The translations under genes were made by a program, and so were the position numbers. 64,000 nucleotides of DNA from Fasciolopsis buskii (lineage: Eukaryota > Platyhelminthes > Trematoda > Plagiorchiida > Fasciolidae). Shown here in pieces: positions 46,319-56,700 of the stretch. The notes below the pieces were generated by a model, which was not told the origin of the DNA, did no database searches, and worked only from the letters and a program-made list of their open reading frames with translations. The DNA lies in NCBI GenBank assembly GCA_008360955.1, contig LUCM01009133.1:71924-135923 (forward strand), read 5' to 3'. Each line of letters opens with the position of its first letter. Position 1 is the first letter of the stretch.

Positions 46319-46950
46319 ATGTCCATTCCGGCATTGTCGAGTACTAACACCCACTCTCTGTTTACGAAGACGTCCGATCTGTCCCTCGCACTTCAATCAC
46401 CGATCCAAGTTCACACGTGTCATCTGCATACAAGAATCGTAGCTGAGCCCGGATATCGCTAATTTACTCGTGTCGACAGAATTATACAGACATAGTTTCG
46501 GACAAGAAGACTGAAGGCGATGTGGAAACGTACATGGACTCCTTCCAGTCTGCAAAAACGAAGTTACTTATATGTACGCGTTAAACGGAATTGACTGTCT
46601 CGTGACACAGTATCATCCTAGGCTTTCTCGCCATAAAAGCACAATCATAACGGACTTATACATTACCCCTTTTACCTCGCAACAAAATATCACATAATTT
46701 TTCGACTCTTTTCTAGTACTTATTGTTCCTCTTCTTGAGGATAATCTGCATACCACTGTGGGTGATTTCAATCATGAATCTACCCTACCATTGACTGCCT
46801 TTGATTTGACCGACCTCTGTGTTTTTCACACCAGTGGCGACTCCAGTTTAGATGGAGTTATTACCAAACGCCTTGATTTTTGCCCTGGAATGAATACTCC
46901 AATTTCTAGTAGTGGTCATTGTCTGCTTCTGTTAAGGCCCAAAATATACT
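46319..46950 (+). pseudogene. LINE endonuclease domain remnant
   Basis: From the ATG at 46319 the frame opens with an endonuclease-like start (NTHSLFTKTSDL) and then shifts frame at least twice. In another frame near 46430-46480 a segment resembles the conserved ESW.-type catalytic region, and further on there is a D-R-R-like block. A stretch at 46560-46755 reads as the Y.PP-type strand region with one in-frame stop. The GDFN motif is intact at 46761-46772. The late catalytic SDH motif is present as Ser-Gly-His at 46911-46919, so the Asp is lost. In intact elements this domain nicks target DNA for target-primed reverse transcription. Confidence 0.8.
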
Positions 46951-47188
46951 CTAGGTCAGCCTTCCATTCCTTCAGGCACTCCAATCGCTTCCGCAGCTTT
47001 TCACACGACAACTTTATTCTTCTTCAGAAATCCCTTTCTCACGCATCTGCCTGTTTCATTTTGAAGTCCTGCTTAATGACAATATCAGACTTTTCACAAA
47101 TTCTGCCAGCGCAAACTTAGATATCTGCTGTCCCTTAGAGGCGTTACTAATCTCAGGTGGCCGCGTCGCCTCTGAGTTACTGCAATCT

Positions 47189-48425
47189 ATGAGAAAACAT
47201 AAGAAGCACTTCTGCAAATCCCGTAATAATTCAAGCGTGTGGTATATTTACAACCTAGTAAAAAATGAAATCAAGTGGATCGACACCATATTCGCTAGCC
47301 CACTTTTGACTGGCAACAACGGTCGATTCCTAAGGCAACGCATTCGACTGTTTTGGGGGAAGAAGAACAAGCATACGAAAACTTCTGCTGATGTCGACAG
47401 CATTAATCGTGCTCTCATCCACCCTTTCACTTATACCCCCGTCATATTTGAACAGGGTGGTGATATGACAGTTACAAGTTTTTCTAGGGAAGAGGTGCTC
47501 GACCTTATCCGCATCACTAAAATTACCACAGGGATTGGTCCTGACAATCTGTCTTCAGCTATTTTAAGGCATGATGCTGTGGCTTTGAACGATGCATTTA
47601 CTCCTCTCATTAACTTGTAATTAACCTCGTCTTCTATCCCCGACTGCTAGCTACCCGTCACTATTATTCCTATCCCAAAATCCAACAGTTCTACTGCTTT
47701 GGCAAAACGTTTTCGCCCCATCGCCTTCACATCTTCTGGTTTTAAACTGACGGAGAGTGCTATAGTTAAGCGCATGTGTTCTTCTATGTATCCTCCTGAC
47801 AACCCTTCTCAGTTTGCCTATAAATGTAACAGATCCACTTTGGACGCTGTCGCCTCCCTCATTCACTACCTTTGTAGTTCCTTAAACGCATCAATGAAAT
47901 CCGTCTGTTGCGTCTTTCGAGACTATTCGTCGGCATTTGACTCAGTCCCATGGTCTCTTCTGCTTCGCAAACTGCAAACATTTGGTTGTCTCACGCCTTT
48001 ATTAGCATGACTGTCTGATCACTTCACTAATCGAACCCAGTGCACATGAATGGACGGTAAAACTTCGAAATCATTGATTAACAAATCAGGCATGCCACAG
48101 GGTGCTGTTCCTTCATTTTTTCTTTTCTCTACTTACATCAGCGACTTATCAACCGGCTCACCCTGTCATCTGTTTGAGTATGCTGATGATGTTGCTCTCT
48201 CTCAAGCTGTTTCGAACAGCGATGGTTTTCAAAGTTTTCCAACCTGTTTACTATTTATCTGCACGAGCTGGTTTAAATCTCAACGCATCTAAATGTTTTG
48301 AATATCTGTTCTCCCTCCCTCGGTCGGCCTGCTCATTCGAAACGTCTTCCATCAACTCAAAAACTCTTACCAGGGTTGATTCTGTGAAACACCTAGGAGT
48401 TACTATTGATACAGGTCTGAATTGA
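47189..48425 (+). pseudogene. LINE reverse transcriptase domain remnant
   Basis: Ordered motifs are visible across three or more frames: a TTGIGPDNL-like block near 47530, RPIAFTSSGFKL at about 47714-47750, QFAYKCNRSTLDAV near 47806-47850, the motif A region FRDYSSAFDSVP at 47915-47950 holding the first catalytic Asp, GMPQGAVPS at 48089-48115 (usual GxPQG), and the YADD box at 48179-48190 with the Asp pair intact. A frameshift at about 48230-48245 moves the reading to the frame holding a K-H-L-G-V-T-I-D thumb motif at about 48391-48414. In-frame stops lie near 47618, 48008, 48046 and 48423. The catalytic residues survive but the gene is dead. Confidence 0.85.
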
Positions 48426-48960
48426 ACTACTCACATTTCTACTTGTGTAAAAAGGTTTGACGGTTGTCATTTCAAGTCAGGAAGCTTCGACAGTGCAAGG
48501 TGAGACAAAGCACCACTTCCCGATTTGTATACCAGTGTTTTTCCAATCCTTCTTTACTGTTCCCCCGTCATTTTTCCGGGTTTTCTTAAAAAGACTTTAA
48601 AATTCTTCGCGGGGGACTATCAATTATCAGCCGGGTGTCCTTCGTACCACTAATAATTTGTCCCTTAATCTAGGTGATCAACATTTATCAGCATGTGAGA
48701 AATTTGCTGATAAAATTCTTTCTGATCCCACGTATCCTGTGCATGATGAGCTTTCGAAATACCGCACTCATCGTTCCACACTCTCTAGAATCAATATCTG
48801 TAGGAACTCTACTGTTCCACATTTAGCGCGAACTTTACAAGCCATGATCTTGTTTTAACTCAATTCCTGAGCAACCTGTCACAATGTGTTCTGATTATTC
48901 CTCGATGAGTTTATAATCAAGTTTTTGCAGGGTGATAAGTGCAAGTGTTTTCCTATTTTT
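48426..48960 (+). pseudogene. LINE C-terminal remnant
   Basis: Downstream of the thumb motif, fragments in shifting frames still read like the LINE tail, notably the open frame at 48658-48858 with DPTYPVHDELSKYRTHRSTL and RNSTVPHLAR segments. These match the usual C-terminal end of such elements in flatworm-like repeats as I remember them. Several stops intervene. After about 48.95 kb only AT-rich sequence with no coding likeness remains, presumably the 3' UTR. Confidence 0.6.
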
Positions 48961-50245: not shown

Positions 50246-53178
50246 GTTTTGCGAAGTCAGATTAAATTGTTGTCTAAAAGTGCGTCAATGTTGTCAGCCG
50301 TTTACATGGATATTTGTACGCAGGTGAGAAGATTGAGCACGAAAGTTGAATTTAACCTATCTTATGATCATACCTGTCTATGACCTCGTGTATCTGCGGT
50401 CGAAAAATGTGAAAAACCAAATATTACCCACACAGTTTTTGTACTTATAACATTTGAGTTGGATCCAGGCGACTCACTGCATGCGAGTCCCCACGTCATT
50501 ATTCGGTTTCCAGCTTTCATCGTTTCAGCATTTCTAAAGGTTTCAAATAAATCTGCAGATTTTATTTGCACAGCAGCCAGTGGTGCCACATGAAGTAAAT
50601 GGTGTCTTCTCTTATCGCACAGATTCGCAAACCACAGGTCATTTTGCACGGAAGTTATTCAGTTCAAACTGCTAGTGTTTAATGATTATACCAAAAATCT
50701 GACTTAATGTAAATATAAACAGTTACTGGGTTGATCAACTCCCATTCAAATCACTTGATGGACACTTCGTTTTTTCCTGGCTGCTGACCAAAAGGGCGAG
50801 AGGACGTCCATTCCAAACTGCTAATCACCGTTAATCATAATTCCTATGATTAATCTTAACGAAGAAGAAATCATATTGAACAGTGCAATACATTCTTGCT
50901 TTAGGTAGACCGCTAATGTTTCTCAGGGGTCAAGTATTAGAAGTGGACACAAAATCTGACCAGCAACAATTTCGAAAAGCTGAAGCCTTATGAAACTCCT
51001 GTTTTATTTTTGATTGTTTGTATTTTGGGTAGTTTAGTCATATGTAACACTTTTTCTAGTACTGTATGGATTAAACATCCACTGTCACACAGAAGATTGT
51101 ACGACGTTTCACTGCGCTGTGGGATTCACAACTGTTCGTCAAAGCACATCAACTTCAGTGTGTACCAGATAAAATGTTACCCAACCGTACCAGATGCATC
51201 TCTTAGTCACACAACCGACTCAGGCGCAATTCACACGGACCATTCAGTAATAAAGTTATATGCATCGCATATAGTGCACGGCAACGAAAATTCCAAGTAA
51301 GAGTATAGACGCAAACAGTCAGAACTTCTACATGACATTTCAGCCTCATCTTATCTCAATGAAGAGAAAGTGTTTTGTTTTATATAGATCCTAACAATAG
51401 TAAATACGCATTCCTTGTCATCCTAGCTTTAGATTAACCGGTCCTACCTTTTAATTAGAAGCAAAAGTGTAAGTAATATATGTGTATATATGTATATGTA
51501 TATGTATATATGCATATACAAATACAAGAAGATGATGGTAGAATTATAACGAAAAATAATGTAATGCGAATTCGTTTCCTGATGAATTGCCAACTGACAT
51601 CCATCCTCCCCTAAAATTACTTTATCGTCGTCATTTACCTTACGACTTGGTTGTCGGTGACCAAAGGTGATCCATTACTTGCGATCTAATATCCATGCGA
51701 TGAAATTCTCCAAAGACAAGCAAAATTAGTCATCAAAAATTATTCCGAGGTAAACTGTTTCAATTTTTCTACTAGAATGTGCAAGATCCCTAAGTTGGAT
51801 CACCTTCTAGTTTGGGTTTGTTCTAGAACAAATTGGAATAGCATGAGACCAATAATAAAAACGAAAAAACAACAAACATCATACATAGGCATATTCGCTG
51901 TTTTCAATCAAACCATTGCAAAGCTGTTTTCGTAACTTGACTCACCTGTCGATTGTTCGAACTCTTTGCCGTTCGTTTTCCCCTCCGTTCGTTTACTGGA
52001 CTAGCGTCAGCTTGCCCGTAACGGATGTCCAGCTGTCTCCGTGCTAGCTGCCTGTTATTTTGCTGCCCATCGGCTCCGATGTACATCGAAAACCTTCCAC
52101 TTGACTGCTACAAATTCAGTCCAATTTACCCCTCGAATTTTTGAACCCTCGGCGGATTAAACACCCACTTCTGTCAAAGCTGTGCAACGTTAATTTGACA
52201 TCTTTTTCGTCCAATCATTAGGGCTTCACTCTCAGACGGGTTTCAATTTCTAGGAAAGTGTAAATTCTCCACAGGCGGCTATCGATTTTAATTGCAAAGT
52301 GTAACGAAACCCAGATTCTCAAAAGATTGGAGAAATTATAGTCTACCAGGTACCTCTTCCTTCCAGGTTACGGTTAAAGCAATACGGGGTTCGGTTAATA
52401 GCTCTGAATACTACTGTCATTTAATACTGAGGTGAATTATTTTAAAATGAACCGAACACCAACGATTTCGGAATATTTACTCCGATCCGAAAGTTTCTGA
52501 CACTGGTATTCTTCGCACCGCTCAAAAAAGGCTACCGAACTCGTGCAGAACATTTATCTGATTGACGGGTGAGACCAATTAAATGAACAATGATGCGACA
52601 TCAAACAAACGACGGTTTTCATTCTGTGAGAAACGGAACTAGTGCAAAATAAGTTTTTTTTACAACAACCCTACTCGTGTGTGCATATTTCTATAAGCGG
52701 TATGAAGCGGAATCAGCCACACTGGCGGAACGGTGATTAAATCATGAATGTCGCGATAATTATTGTCACGGTTGTTACGTGCTTGTTACTTTTTGGATTG
52801 ACGTGGTCTACAAAAGGGCGAAGAACAAATTTTCTCGGCACAAAACCGCTTACGGACAAACAGTGAATTCTTTAAGTCCAAGAAACTGCGAATACTCCTG
52901 GGCGGAGATTAGTGTCCACCCTCGAAGTGGATCTGTGCGACAGTTTTCACCTACCAGGTTCTGGTGCATTGTATGAGACATGAAAACTGATCCAATCTAA
53001 CGTATTCAACGTGGGGGCTTCTCTTTGGTGTGAAAGGGTTAGGGCCGGTTCACTATTCAGCCATAGAAAGCGTCACAGCCATAGTTGGTTGAATAAATCA
53101 CCATGGAATCGACGAGTACTGACCATGCGTTTCGGTGCATAAGAGAATCCGGGAAAGAAAATTCGATGGTCAGCACAA
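50246..53178. other. Non-coding stretch
   Basis: No gene is recognised. It contains a TA-rich simple repeat near 51.5 kb. A minus-strand open frame at 51904-52086 is Gln/Arg/Asn-rich with no domain. Confidence 0.5.
51474..51522. repeat. TA/GTAT-rich simple repeat
   Basis: An imperfect run of tatg and tata units. Its AT-rich, self-complementary makeup would melt easily. Confidence 0.8.
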
Positions 53179-53195
53179 CAAGGAACAATCGATTT
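53179..53195. repeat. 17-bp direct repeat, left copy
   Basis: The sequence caaggaacaatcgattt occurs here and again at 53761-53777, immediately outside the foldback and its tail. Exact repetition in the same orientation is what a target-site duplication around an insertion looks like. The length would suit a LINE-type integration better than most DNA transposons. Confidence 0.85.
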
Positions 53196-53709
53196 CAGTG
53201 ATTCGTACTCATGCCATTACATCACTATATATATCTTGACAAAATATTTTCACTTTAGGAAGGATTGGATTAGTCATTTACAAATATGGGTGGGGAAGGG
53301 ATTTGTGGTGTTAATTGTTTTGTTGTCTAGGGTTTGTATTGGGACGGGGGGTGGGCCAAGGGAGTTGAAGCGCAACCACAAATTGTTTTTGAGAACAAAG
53401 TGGAGGACTGTGAAGACGGATTGCGACAGCTTCCGCAGTGCTCAAAGTGTCGCCTCTTGAGCACTGCGGAAGCTGTCGCAATCCGTCTTCACAGTCCTCC
53501 ACTTTGTTCTCAAAAACAATTTGTGGTTGCGCTTCAACTCCCTTGGCCCACCCCCCGTCCCAATACAAACCCTAGACAACAAAACAATTAACACCACAAA
53601 TCCCTTCCCCACCCATATTTGTAAATGACTAATCCAATCCTTCCTAAAGTGAAAATATTTTGTCAAGATATATATAGTGATGTAATGGCATGAGTACGAA
53701 TCACTGAAA
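53193..53709. repeat. Perfect 517-bp inverted repeat (foldback)
   Basis: The left arm 53193-53445 and right arm 53457-53709 are exact reverse complements over all 253 positions, around an 11-base spacer (agtgtcgcctc) centred on 53451. I compared the arms end to end and found no mismatch. Because they are identical, the same open reading appears on both strands: 53236-53460 plus against 53442-53741 minus, and 53334-53591 plus against 53311-53568 minus. None of these is recognised as a protein. A transcript from either side would fold into a 253-bp double-stranded RNA hairpin. A palindrome this long and perfect is unstable in replication, so it is either very young or an assembly or library artefact. 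Confidence 0.95.
53341..53362 (+). other. G-quadruplex-type motif in left arm
   Basis: Four G3 runs with loops of 2, 4 and 4 bases can be drawn here, and a looser G-rich run precedes it at 53288-53300. The mirror-image C-rich motif falls at 53540-53561 in the right arm, so the quadruplex strand is the plus strand in one arm and the minus strand in the other. Confidence 0.6.
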
Positions 53710-53760
53710 ACGAGCTTGTTCGCCAACTTGTGTTTTCTCAATGTGCTCAGTGGTAATTTT
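53710..53760. other. Unique tail between the right arm and the direct repeat
   Basis: Fifty-one bases separate the right arm from the second direct-repeat copy. The left arm instead abuts its direct repeat with no gap. The tail has no poly-A and no recognised motif. It makes the insertion asymmetric, so a simple foldback transposon with symmetrical ends does not fit. Confidence 0.7.
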
Positions 53761-53777
53761 CAAGGAACAATCGATTT
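53761..53777. repeat. 17-bp direct repeat, right copy
   Basis: This is an exact second copy of caaggaacaatcgattt (see 53179-53195). Beyond it the sequence differs from that following the left copy, as expected if only the target site was duplicated. Confidence 0.85.
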
Positions 53778-56700
53778 ATCCTATTCCATTATCTGTACAC
53801 CAAGTTGACTCAAAACAGCAGAGAACCTCTGGGGGACAACTTGTGCATATTCCGTTCGATTTTAACCGCGATAGATTTGATCATGTGAGAGGACTGAATA
53901 AAAGTAGATTTTAAATTCATGTGTCACCGTTGTTCGCATTTTAGCTTTTCTAACGATCCCCGCAGTAAATTAATACCGGGTACCATAAGCTAGTACATAT
54001 TAAGCACTGTGCATATTAGCAAACCTAAACCGTTCAATGTTTGCAGGTTATCCAAAGTCGATTTTACTCTCGTAATTATTGCCTAATGCCCCATCAGGAT
54101 TCACAGTATGGACCAACTTTGAAGACCAGCTCATCATGTGTTCAGAATTATTCCAACACTAAATTTACCAAATCGATGCGGCCAGCATATACTCGATGTT
54201 GGGCATGGAGCATAAGCGCACACTTAAAAAGTAGGAAGAAATTCTGCTCTGAGGTTTTTCTCCCTATGAAGCCTGATGTAAACTGACATGCCAGAACTTC
54301 CAGACAGCAAACTCGCGTCAACCCATTTTTTGTTTCATCTCTGTATGGTTCGCGAATAAGCTGGTGCCGTTGAAATACACATGGATCTGGAGATCAAAAG
54401 TAGCTGTTTATCGTTCATCTCCCGCCCGTTTCGTGATTGACGTGGATTAACAAACAGATTTTCATCCAGCTCGAACAATTCACCTGAATGTTGTTAGTTA
54501 CGATTCTCAGGCTTAGTAAGGCCCAACAGCACTTAATGTTACGCGGGCACATTTACTAATAGATTTCAGTCAAAAGTACCATAAATCCTCGAATCTCATC
54601 CTATCCAGTGTACTTGGAAATTCCCGATTGTCTGATTGTTATTTATCACCTTGGGAGGCTGAACTGTAAATTGCATATCAGTCATTTGCTTCAGTCGAAA
54701 AAACCTTGTCTCTCAGCCTATTTGGTTGATTAATCAATCTTCCGAAAGCAGCTACGGTAGTTATTCATCGGTCACTTCTATTTAATTACCGAGTGTTGGC
54801 TAATGGCCCGTCACTTGCCAATCAGCAGATTAGTGTAACAGAAAGTTCCCTCTCATTCTGAAGTGGATCAATAGTAGAGTTTTAGTAACTTCAGAATATG
54901 CAAGAATATTCCGTGAATCCGATAAATAAGATAGATCACATAATAATAAGGTATGCTTTTAAATCCTTTGTTCAGTAAATAATACTCAATTTAACGGGCT
55001 AAAGTTTGATAGCAAATACGTGGGCAATACTATCTAATTCAAATCAATAGCACTAATCTAGTTAATCTTTATTTAGTCTTTTTTGCTTGTCTAGGAAGAC
55101 ACGACCAGTTCATAAATAACTTTCTCGCAAAGTATGTCAACTTAGTCGGTCAAAAAGCTTTACCACTTGGTACTGGTTGAATTTTCCCAAGAGTATGCAC
55201 GTGCATTTCTAATCATTCGAATTACGGGCGCAATGTTTCTAAGCTACCGCGTGATGTGCGATCTTCGTACGCCAAGGCAATTGAGACTATTCTAAGTGTG
55301 AAACCTACAAACATCGAATAAAACGCTTATTTCTGAAAATCGAAGTAGGGGGCTTAAGATTGCGGCGATTTTTATTCGTGCCTTGAATTTGTGTGTATAA
55401 GCCTAGGCTTCAGGCTGAGTCACTGAAACTCGGATGCCCAAAATGAAACTCAATCAAAGCACTAAACTTCGTAAGAAGCATACCAGTTTTTCAAAGCGAA
55501 ATGCCGGCATGCAAAAAGTAAATAACAAAACCTGCAATACCCCTCTGGTTCAAAATCTTCGGAAGGGTTCCAGGTTCAGCTTATCAGTAACAACAAACTT
55601 ATTCCATTTTACGAGATTGGGGCTGACTACAGCTGAACACTAGCTATGGCCAATCTTTGTGGTAAGAACTTTACGAAACTTCCAATAAAAATTCCAATTT
55701 GGAAGCATCGGATACAGACAGATCCATCCAGGCTATTTCATTTCCTGCAAGACACGCTGCCAACAGAACGGAACGACGACGAATGACAGTAAAATTATCC
55801 TAATTGTTTTTCCAATAAAGGCCCAGTGAGCACAACGCTTATAATGCCTTTTTCCTTTTGACTTGTCACGTCGCGTGCTGTCTCCGGAGGTGCAACGGGT
55901 CGCGAGTTTATGTCATGTTTAAGGTTCAATGGATGTTAGGAGAGTTCTTACCTAGCAGCCGCGTTCCCTTGTGAGACGAGTCCGCATTAAGAGATTTGAA
56001 GTAATGCTGGTCTATATGACAAATTTGACTGCGACGACTAGACTGTGATATCCAAGGACTTCTCCAGTTTATGTACTGTTTGAATTAACTGAAGGAATGC
56101 CATGACGAAATGCCGAAATTCGAGTACTATTTTCGATTCTATACGGTCCCGTATGGCCTCATACAGATGAAAACTTTGGTAAACCGCCAATATTTTTGTT
56201 GTTTACTCGTCCATTGTGAACGCACAGAAACAGTCAATGAATTATTAACCGGTACTGATCAAATCAGTTTCAGGGAAACACTAGGCTCTGTTTTGTTGCT
56301 CCTGACTTTGGATGTTTCTATGTAAGCGCAGAATAACTCGTTTGGTCTTCACATGATTTGGAATGTTGTTGCTAATTGCTTTTCTGGAATCGCAAATGCT
56401 TATTAAACGTTAATGATCTAGGATAACAACCTGCATTAAAGGTTTCACATTAACATCTACTTATGGCCACGTTGTTTCGCATATTCATCAACGCTTGATT
56501 CACTCGATTGTACGGACGAAGTCATTACCAGGCTGTGGCATTTGTACCATATTGCGAACTAGCGTATTTTAAATGACAGATATGCATTTCCGAATTCCAA
56601 AACTGGTAGATTCGAAGGCAGATCAAACAGCCGCCCAAAGGTTGGCTGATGCAAAACGTCTGCTGTTCCTTACTACCGATAAATGCAATCGGTGCTCTGT

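Follow-up and report, generated by a model that had tools for sequence, protein, structure and literature searches.

Penelope-like elements (PLEs) have two peculiarities at their ends, inverted pLTRs and short 3' extensions, as stated in the accessible part of PMC8969392. In Adineta vaga, according to the available text of PMC3846280, PLE copies carry inverted pLTRs, most often head-to-head, and a 31-bp tail is optional on one of the two. The same text describes the tail as the start of the ORF in other PLEs too, contains the proposal that inverted pLTRs arise by self-priming on an antisense template, and reports that most rotifer PLE families yield mainly antisense small RNAs. In the available text of PMC11167929, a PLE protein purified from the Anolis element is shown in vitro to cleave each of the two target strands and to extend both, and it uses two adjacent internal RT start sites, with the interval between them equal to the tail and no apparent start-site difference between the strands. 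The accessible portion of PMC12910113 yielded nothing on inverted PLE ends, and we found no start-site-pair counts or arm-containment tests in literature titles and abstracts, which is no proof of their absence.

The locus described here is an ordinary example of the head-to-head insertion already known for PLEs. As in Pen2a_Av and other endonuclease-containing PLEs of Adineta vaga, element ends meet head-to-head (several of them there inside one target-site duplication), a tail is present on one inverted end, palindromes occur at the inverted junctions, and copies are 5' truncated. Unlike the Adineta vaga elements, for which the text at hand gives a low copy number, full-length pLTR-ORF-pLTR units, and flanking repeats of 8-10 bp or none, the present family shows 1349 matches of one 31-mer, no full-length unit in the loci sampled, and flanking repeats of 10-17 bp (PMC3846280, available text). 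With the Poseidon PLE of Anolis carolinensis (PAc) it shares two adjacent reverse-transcription starts close to where the ORF begins, the genomic tail being the interval between them. It differs from PAc in vitro in that, within a single insertion, the starts of the two arms are almost always different, and from PAc and other PLEs in that their hammerhead ribozyme was not found in the loci searched here (PMC11167929, as far as the available text goes).

The window, i.e. the whole 64,000-nt stretch of Fasciolopsis buskii DNA that was analyzed, lies within contig C5381 and contains no N bases. A preliminary description made from the letters had reported a perfect 253-bp inverted repeat with an 11-base spacer, and this was confirmed without a mismatch at any of the 253 positions: the arm at 53193-53445 is the exact reverse complement of the arm at 53457-53709 (253/253 bases), and the 11 bases between them, at 53446-53456, read AGTGTCGCCTC. 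Repeat detection lengthened the arms to 257 nt with one mismatch in the added bases, at 53192. The predicted RNA fold of the palindrome (-492 kcal/mol) was far below the mean of 100 shuffles (-132 kcal/mol), which excludes a chance origin. Beyond the 253 bp the feature is asymmetric, with the right arm continuing as element sequence to 53767 and the left arm ending at 53193, or at 53183 in an alignment of 98.5% under looser scoring. The palindrome is the overlap between two unequal PLE copies and only part of the whole feature (Table 1).

Table 1. Features of the head-to-head insertion in window coordinates; X is the distance from the RNA 3' terminus, measured on copy L028.
Feature	Position	Strand	Reading
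Left copy of 17-bp direct repeat CAAGGAACAATCGATTT	53179..53195	.	Longest exact substring common to both flanks; target-site duplication
Left arm	53193..53445	+	PLE 3' end in cDNA (antisense) orientation, X60-312 (L028 alignment)
Overlap CAA/TTG, 3 nt	53443..53445	.	Head-to-head meeting of two cDNA copies; both arm alignments cover these bases
Right arm	53443..53767	-	PLE 3' end X2-326, 99.7% to L028, includes 3' terminus
Spacer	53446..53456	-	PLE X313-323, continuation of right arm
Last codons and stop of RT/endonuclease ORF	53446..53591	+	Sense, within right arm; TAA 53589-53591
Tail, right arm only	53741..53767	+	X2-28; opens with ATG (MCSVVIFKE...)
Right copy of 17-bp direct repeat CAAGGAACAATCGATTT	53761..53777	.	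Same flank comparison

Several features are read from the sequence itself: the outer starts are unequal, the spacer belongs to the right arm, the arms overlap by 3 nt, and a direct repeat flanks the insertion. The same is true of the RT family considered below. The left arm begins ~59 nt internal to the 3' terminus, which the right arm retains. The spacer was assigned to the element on the basis that GAGGCGACACTTTG comes after the arm in most other full-arm copies; GAGGCGACACTTTGCC likewise follows in most of the other full-arm copies, and the window departs from it after TTTG. At the outer ends, the final TTT of the left repeat copy also belongs to the left arm, and the first seven bases of the right repeat copy, CAAGGAA, coincide with the PLE terminus. 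The ORF ends in ...NTNPRQQNN in L010, L015, L028, and L032, with the last codon at X181. The PLE ORF probably begins at the tail ATG at 53741, because related proteins share the consensus start M..GIF..LK. The inner start site X28 (window 53741) is the A of this probable start codon.

Beyond the arm, long copies carry an opposite-strand ORF with a reverse transcriptase domain (RVT_1, E 4.7e-12). The best named homologues of its protein are from flatworms, namely Paragonimus westermani (60% identity) and the digenean trematode Dicrocoelium dendriticum (57%); a few other protein matches are labelled as bacterial metagenome bins. The protein is 48-58% identical to six related proteins, four of them from flatworms, and the stretch ...CSCGTMYIGRTTRRLSERIREH is largely conserved in all six. 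A C-terminal piece of 143 aa matched the GIY-YIG model PF01541 at E 0.0067 with 17.1 bits, below the cut-off of 22.6, and a whole-protein scan up to E 10 gave no GIY-YIG match. NCBIfam matches of the protein to bacterial RTs were far below cut-off, and no solved structure matched its sequence at E 0.001. The arm end is common to the copies, whereas their opposite ends are truncated at many different points, as is expected of 5'-truncated retrotransposons. In our reading, the arm represents a PLE 3' end, a label that we take from sequence motifs and structural features and not from a database label; the palindrome is a young insertion of this retrotransposon, which the preliminary description had not recognised, and not a stand-alone hairpin locus. 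No tandem pLTR was detected as a repeat in the 5.9 kb inward of L028, in a sample with no full-length copy. Hammerhead ribozymes gave no Rfam match at gathering in six loci, and in 52500-54500 none was among the Rfam matches up to E 1. Since copies end near ORF +28, truncation may have removed the motif.

The genome search for further copies of one arm that had been proposed at the outset turned up many, and it was the informative suggestion among those made there. In 703 Mb (6974 contigs) the arm had at least 42 matches at 98-100% identity, a lower bound from scoring 40 of 2472 first-look candidates, and at least nine places matched it without any difference; both counts include the two arms in the window. 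A 31-mer from the outer end of the arm occurred 1349 times with ≤1 mismatch, versus 0 for a control pattern. We examined 73 loci, the window and 72 others (L009-L080). Sample A comprised the window and the 33 loci with the 40 non-window arm matches, and it is biased toward young, long-armed copies. Sample B comprised 39 loci taken in contig order among the first 100 of the 1349 31-mer matches, so that the matched arm cannot start beyond about X37.

Alignments to L028 had a median identity of 99.56% in sample A (n=49) and 97.62% in sample B (n=34). Over X60-312, the window arms have the base most frequent among the sampled copies at every position except X122, and there their base is common to 10 of 60 loci. 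Fourteen head-to-head pairs of sample A had 100 or more positions in common; of these, seven had identical arms, the window included, three differed at one position, and the remaining four at 2, 3, 3, and 25 positions. Recency is thus sufficient for the perfect complementarity. The preliminary description had put forward an extremely recent event or active gene conversion between the arms; the exact arm copies and the seven identical pairs bear out the first, and the second is not needed.

For the comparison across insertions, 37 rows with a head-to-head flip were considered. L034, with a centre of 871 N, was added to the head-to-head set by hand, seven rows whose outer end was hidden or beyond the fetched stretch were left out (L054, L062, L066, L069, L071, L074, and L075), and 31 insertions with both outer ends resolved were kept. 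An architecture like that of the window was present in 30 other insertions, 25 of which have resolved centres, with different junctions. In 29 of the 31, one arm started at X≤8 and its partner at X26-97, where shuffled pairing would give 15.7 such pairs (p 5e-6, the floor of the test). The exceptions were L018 (99 and 20) and L029 (29 and 25). This pairing of starts was seen in 17/19 insertions of sample A (p 6e-4) and in 12/12 of sample B (p 1.5e-3), and of all 105 arm starts 51 fell at X1-8 and 30 at X27-31. An optional tail of ~30 bp on one inverted end is a PLE feature, and it is the pattern present in these 29 of 31.

Exact flanking repeats of at least 9 bp were found around 32 of 45 blocks tested, as compared to 0.45% of 1980 mismatched flank pairs, and they measured 10-17 bp when overlap with the element ends was counted. 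Head-to-head insertions had them in 24 of 30 cases tested; by the same test, L014, L017, L044, L061, L072, and L073 showed no clear flanking repeat. Since one flanking repeat surrounds the whole head-to-head structure, the inverted structure would have gone in as one unit. A terminal-inverted-repeat DNA transposon, MITE, or foldback element was also considered and rejected, as it requires equal fixed ends and the outer ends were unequal in 29/31 insertions (X≤8 vs X26-97). The inner arm ends, unequal in 26/26 resolved centres by 1 to 2209 nt, likewise count against a DNA transposon. No second inverted end was seen in 35 of the 73 loci within the stretch available, some of which are cut by N or by the fetched edge.

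We consider it probable that a young, heavily 5'-truncated PLE insertion was generated at this locus by priming from both target strands, with the two cDNAs joined head-to-head. The use of both strands, the order of the events, and the route of joining are the parts that we infer. The PLE endonuclease would make a staggered cut at the target. One target 3' end would prime cDNA synthesis at the RNA 3' terminus and yield the right arm, from X2 to X326, and the other target 3' end would prime a second cDNA internally and yield the left arm, from X60 to X312. For this second priming, the target end ...GAACAATCGATTT would anneal imperfectly with PLE sequence. The two cDNA 3' ends would subsequently be joined head-to-head via the 3-nt CAA/TTG microhomology, and gap filling would produce the 17-bp flanking repeat. 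In L1 twin priming, the element RNA is reverse transcribed from each of the two target 3' ends, and microhomology joins the resulting cDNAs into inverted pieces. Those pieces come from different parts of the RNA, whereas both cDNAs of the present PLE usually come from near the 3' end, with the same segment represented twice.

Among the PLE ends X25-325 scanned, the target strand ...GAACAATCGATTT pairs best at X62, which is the start of the left arm (TTT shared), and 32 of 20000 random 20-mers paired as well at the left-arm junction. This suggests that the second target strand acted as a primer by imperfect annealing, although 88 of 300 random 20-mers could pair just as well at one place or another in the PLE end, which counts against it.

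Self-priming, as put forward for PLEs in the available text of PMC3846280, would have the cDNA (or antisense RNA, Arkhipova 2013) snap back via CAA/TTG with an 11-nt loop and copy itself, the copy stopping 59 nt short and joining the target. We regard this explanation as unlikely; as a route at the window locus alone it is possible. The window has what self-priming calls for, in that the loop is part of the longer arm, 3 nt are available for snap-back pairing, and the shorter arm lies inside the longer one. With the five insertions that have N at the centre set aside, 26 resolved centres were left for comparison, and in 18 of these, window included, the range of one arm was inside that of the other. 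In the remaining eight (L015, L029, L033, L038, L040, L042, L063, and L078) neither range contained the other, so neither arm can have copied its partner, though L029 (by 4 nt) and L040 (by 1 nt) are marginal. This class ranges from L015, where X57-1856 stands against X1-52, to the near-palindromes L033 and L063, and because of it self-priming cannot explain all insertions. The position of the window's left arm, whose start is the best-pairing site for the target end among the PLE positions scanned, also speaks against self-priming. By these counts, at least some of the insertions are better explained by two-sided priming than by the self-priming route put forward in the literature.

An excess of near-equal inner ends is in line with self-priming. 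The inner ends were ≤30 nt apart in 8 of the 26 insertions versus 2.4 expected from shuffling (p 4e-4), or in 7/25 without the window (p 1.5e-3), with the 30-nt limit picked after looking at the data. Other limits gave 3/26 at ≤15 nt (p 0.07), 4/26 at ≤20 nt (p 0.04), 9/26 at ≤50 nt (p 0.001), and 10/26 at ≤100 nt (p 0.06). Such closeness links one cDNA to the other, whether by a shared template RNA or, in some cases, by a hairpin step. The arms abutted or overlapped at 16 of the 26 centres, and 13 of these 16 overlapped by at least 2 nt (~16% by chance); the other 10 centres had 1-100 unmatched bases between the arms and no overlap. In L011, L057, and L061 the sequence between the arms amounts to 49-100 nt without a match to L028, perhaps captured filler DNA.

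Minority variants often occurred in both arms of one locus (X122, X147, and X360 in L033; X326 and X418 in L020), which agrees with a single source copy for most loci, though not necessarily with a single molecule. A single polymorphic site distinguishes the two arms in each of L014, L020, and L029, and 25 positions beyond X590 do so in L030.

For two-sided priming we tentatively entertain a stricter version, possible but on balance doubtful, in which use of the two target strands would be coordinated: one would start at the terminal site and the other ~27 nt inside, on the same RNA, which an asymmetric dimer would hold. If this were true, head-to-head duplication would be a normal reaction product and not an accident, and potential silencing hairpins would arise automatically in a large share of new copies. 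The PLE family is abundant and young and offers many independent insertions with readable junctions, and it is suited for tests of two-strand priming, of paired start sites, and of the use of one RNA for both cDNAs.

An origin after insertion, by two insertions, a later inverted duplication, or gene conversion equalising the arms, would account for identical arms, and we consider it very improbable: the inverted structure as a whole lies within a single flanking repeat, as in 24/30 insertions, the inequality of the outer ends follows a pattern, and the median of 99.56% to L028 in sample A makes recency enough. To a selected endogenous siRNA or microRNA-like hairpin gene we likewise assign a very small probability. 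A transcript of the locus would fold as a near-perfect 250-bp hairpin, and Rfam miRNA models do align to it, but all 12 of the 12 Rfam matches to microRNA precursor families up to E 1 were under their gathering scores. Such sub-threshold matches look like a by-product of any perfect hairpin, and the sequence is a high-copy PLE end. Head-to-head copies are candidate natural triggers of small-RNA silencing.

An assembly artefact with a chimeric join at the centre, which the preliminary description had kept in view and which the N-containing centres of five head-to-head copies might recall as a sign that the structure is hard to assemble, is hardly credible here, given a window without N, matched 17-bp flanking repeats, unequal outer ends, and the same architecture in 30 similar insertions. 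The five copies are L014, L017, L020, L021, and L034, four with a single N and one with 871, and they indicate that the assembly under-resolves head-to-head structure.

An older head-to-head insertion of the same PLE family was observed in L040 at 809-1148, 92-96% identical to L028 and 1.4 kb from a younger copy; the head-to-head arrangement is thus not confined to the recent burst. Elsewhere in the window, a different retrotransposon has left decayed reverse-transcriptase fragments at 46698-48425 (+), with RVT_1 at 47651-48010 (E 1.2e-14), and by its look it resembles a CR1-type LINE; the open frames beside the fragment at 47651-48010 gave no Pfam match. The remark that the other repeats of the window are heavily decayed agrees with the only other repeat pair found at E 1e-20, which is 73% identical. 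This inverted pair of 320 bp occupies 2314-2619 and 48381-48692, and its second copy adjoins the decayed RT fragments.
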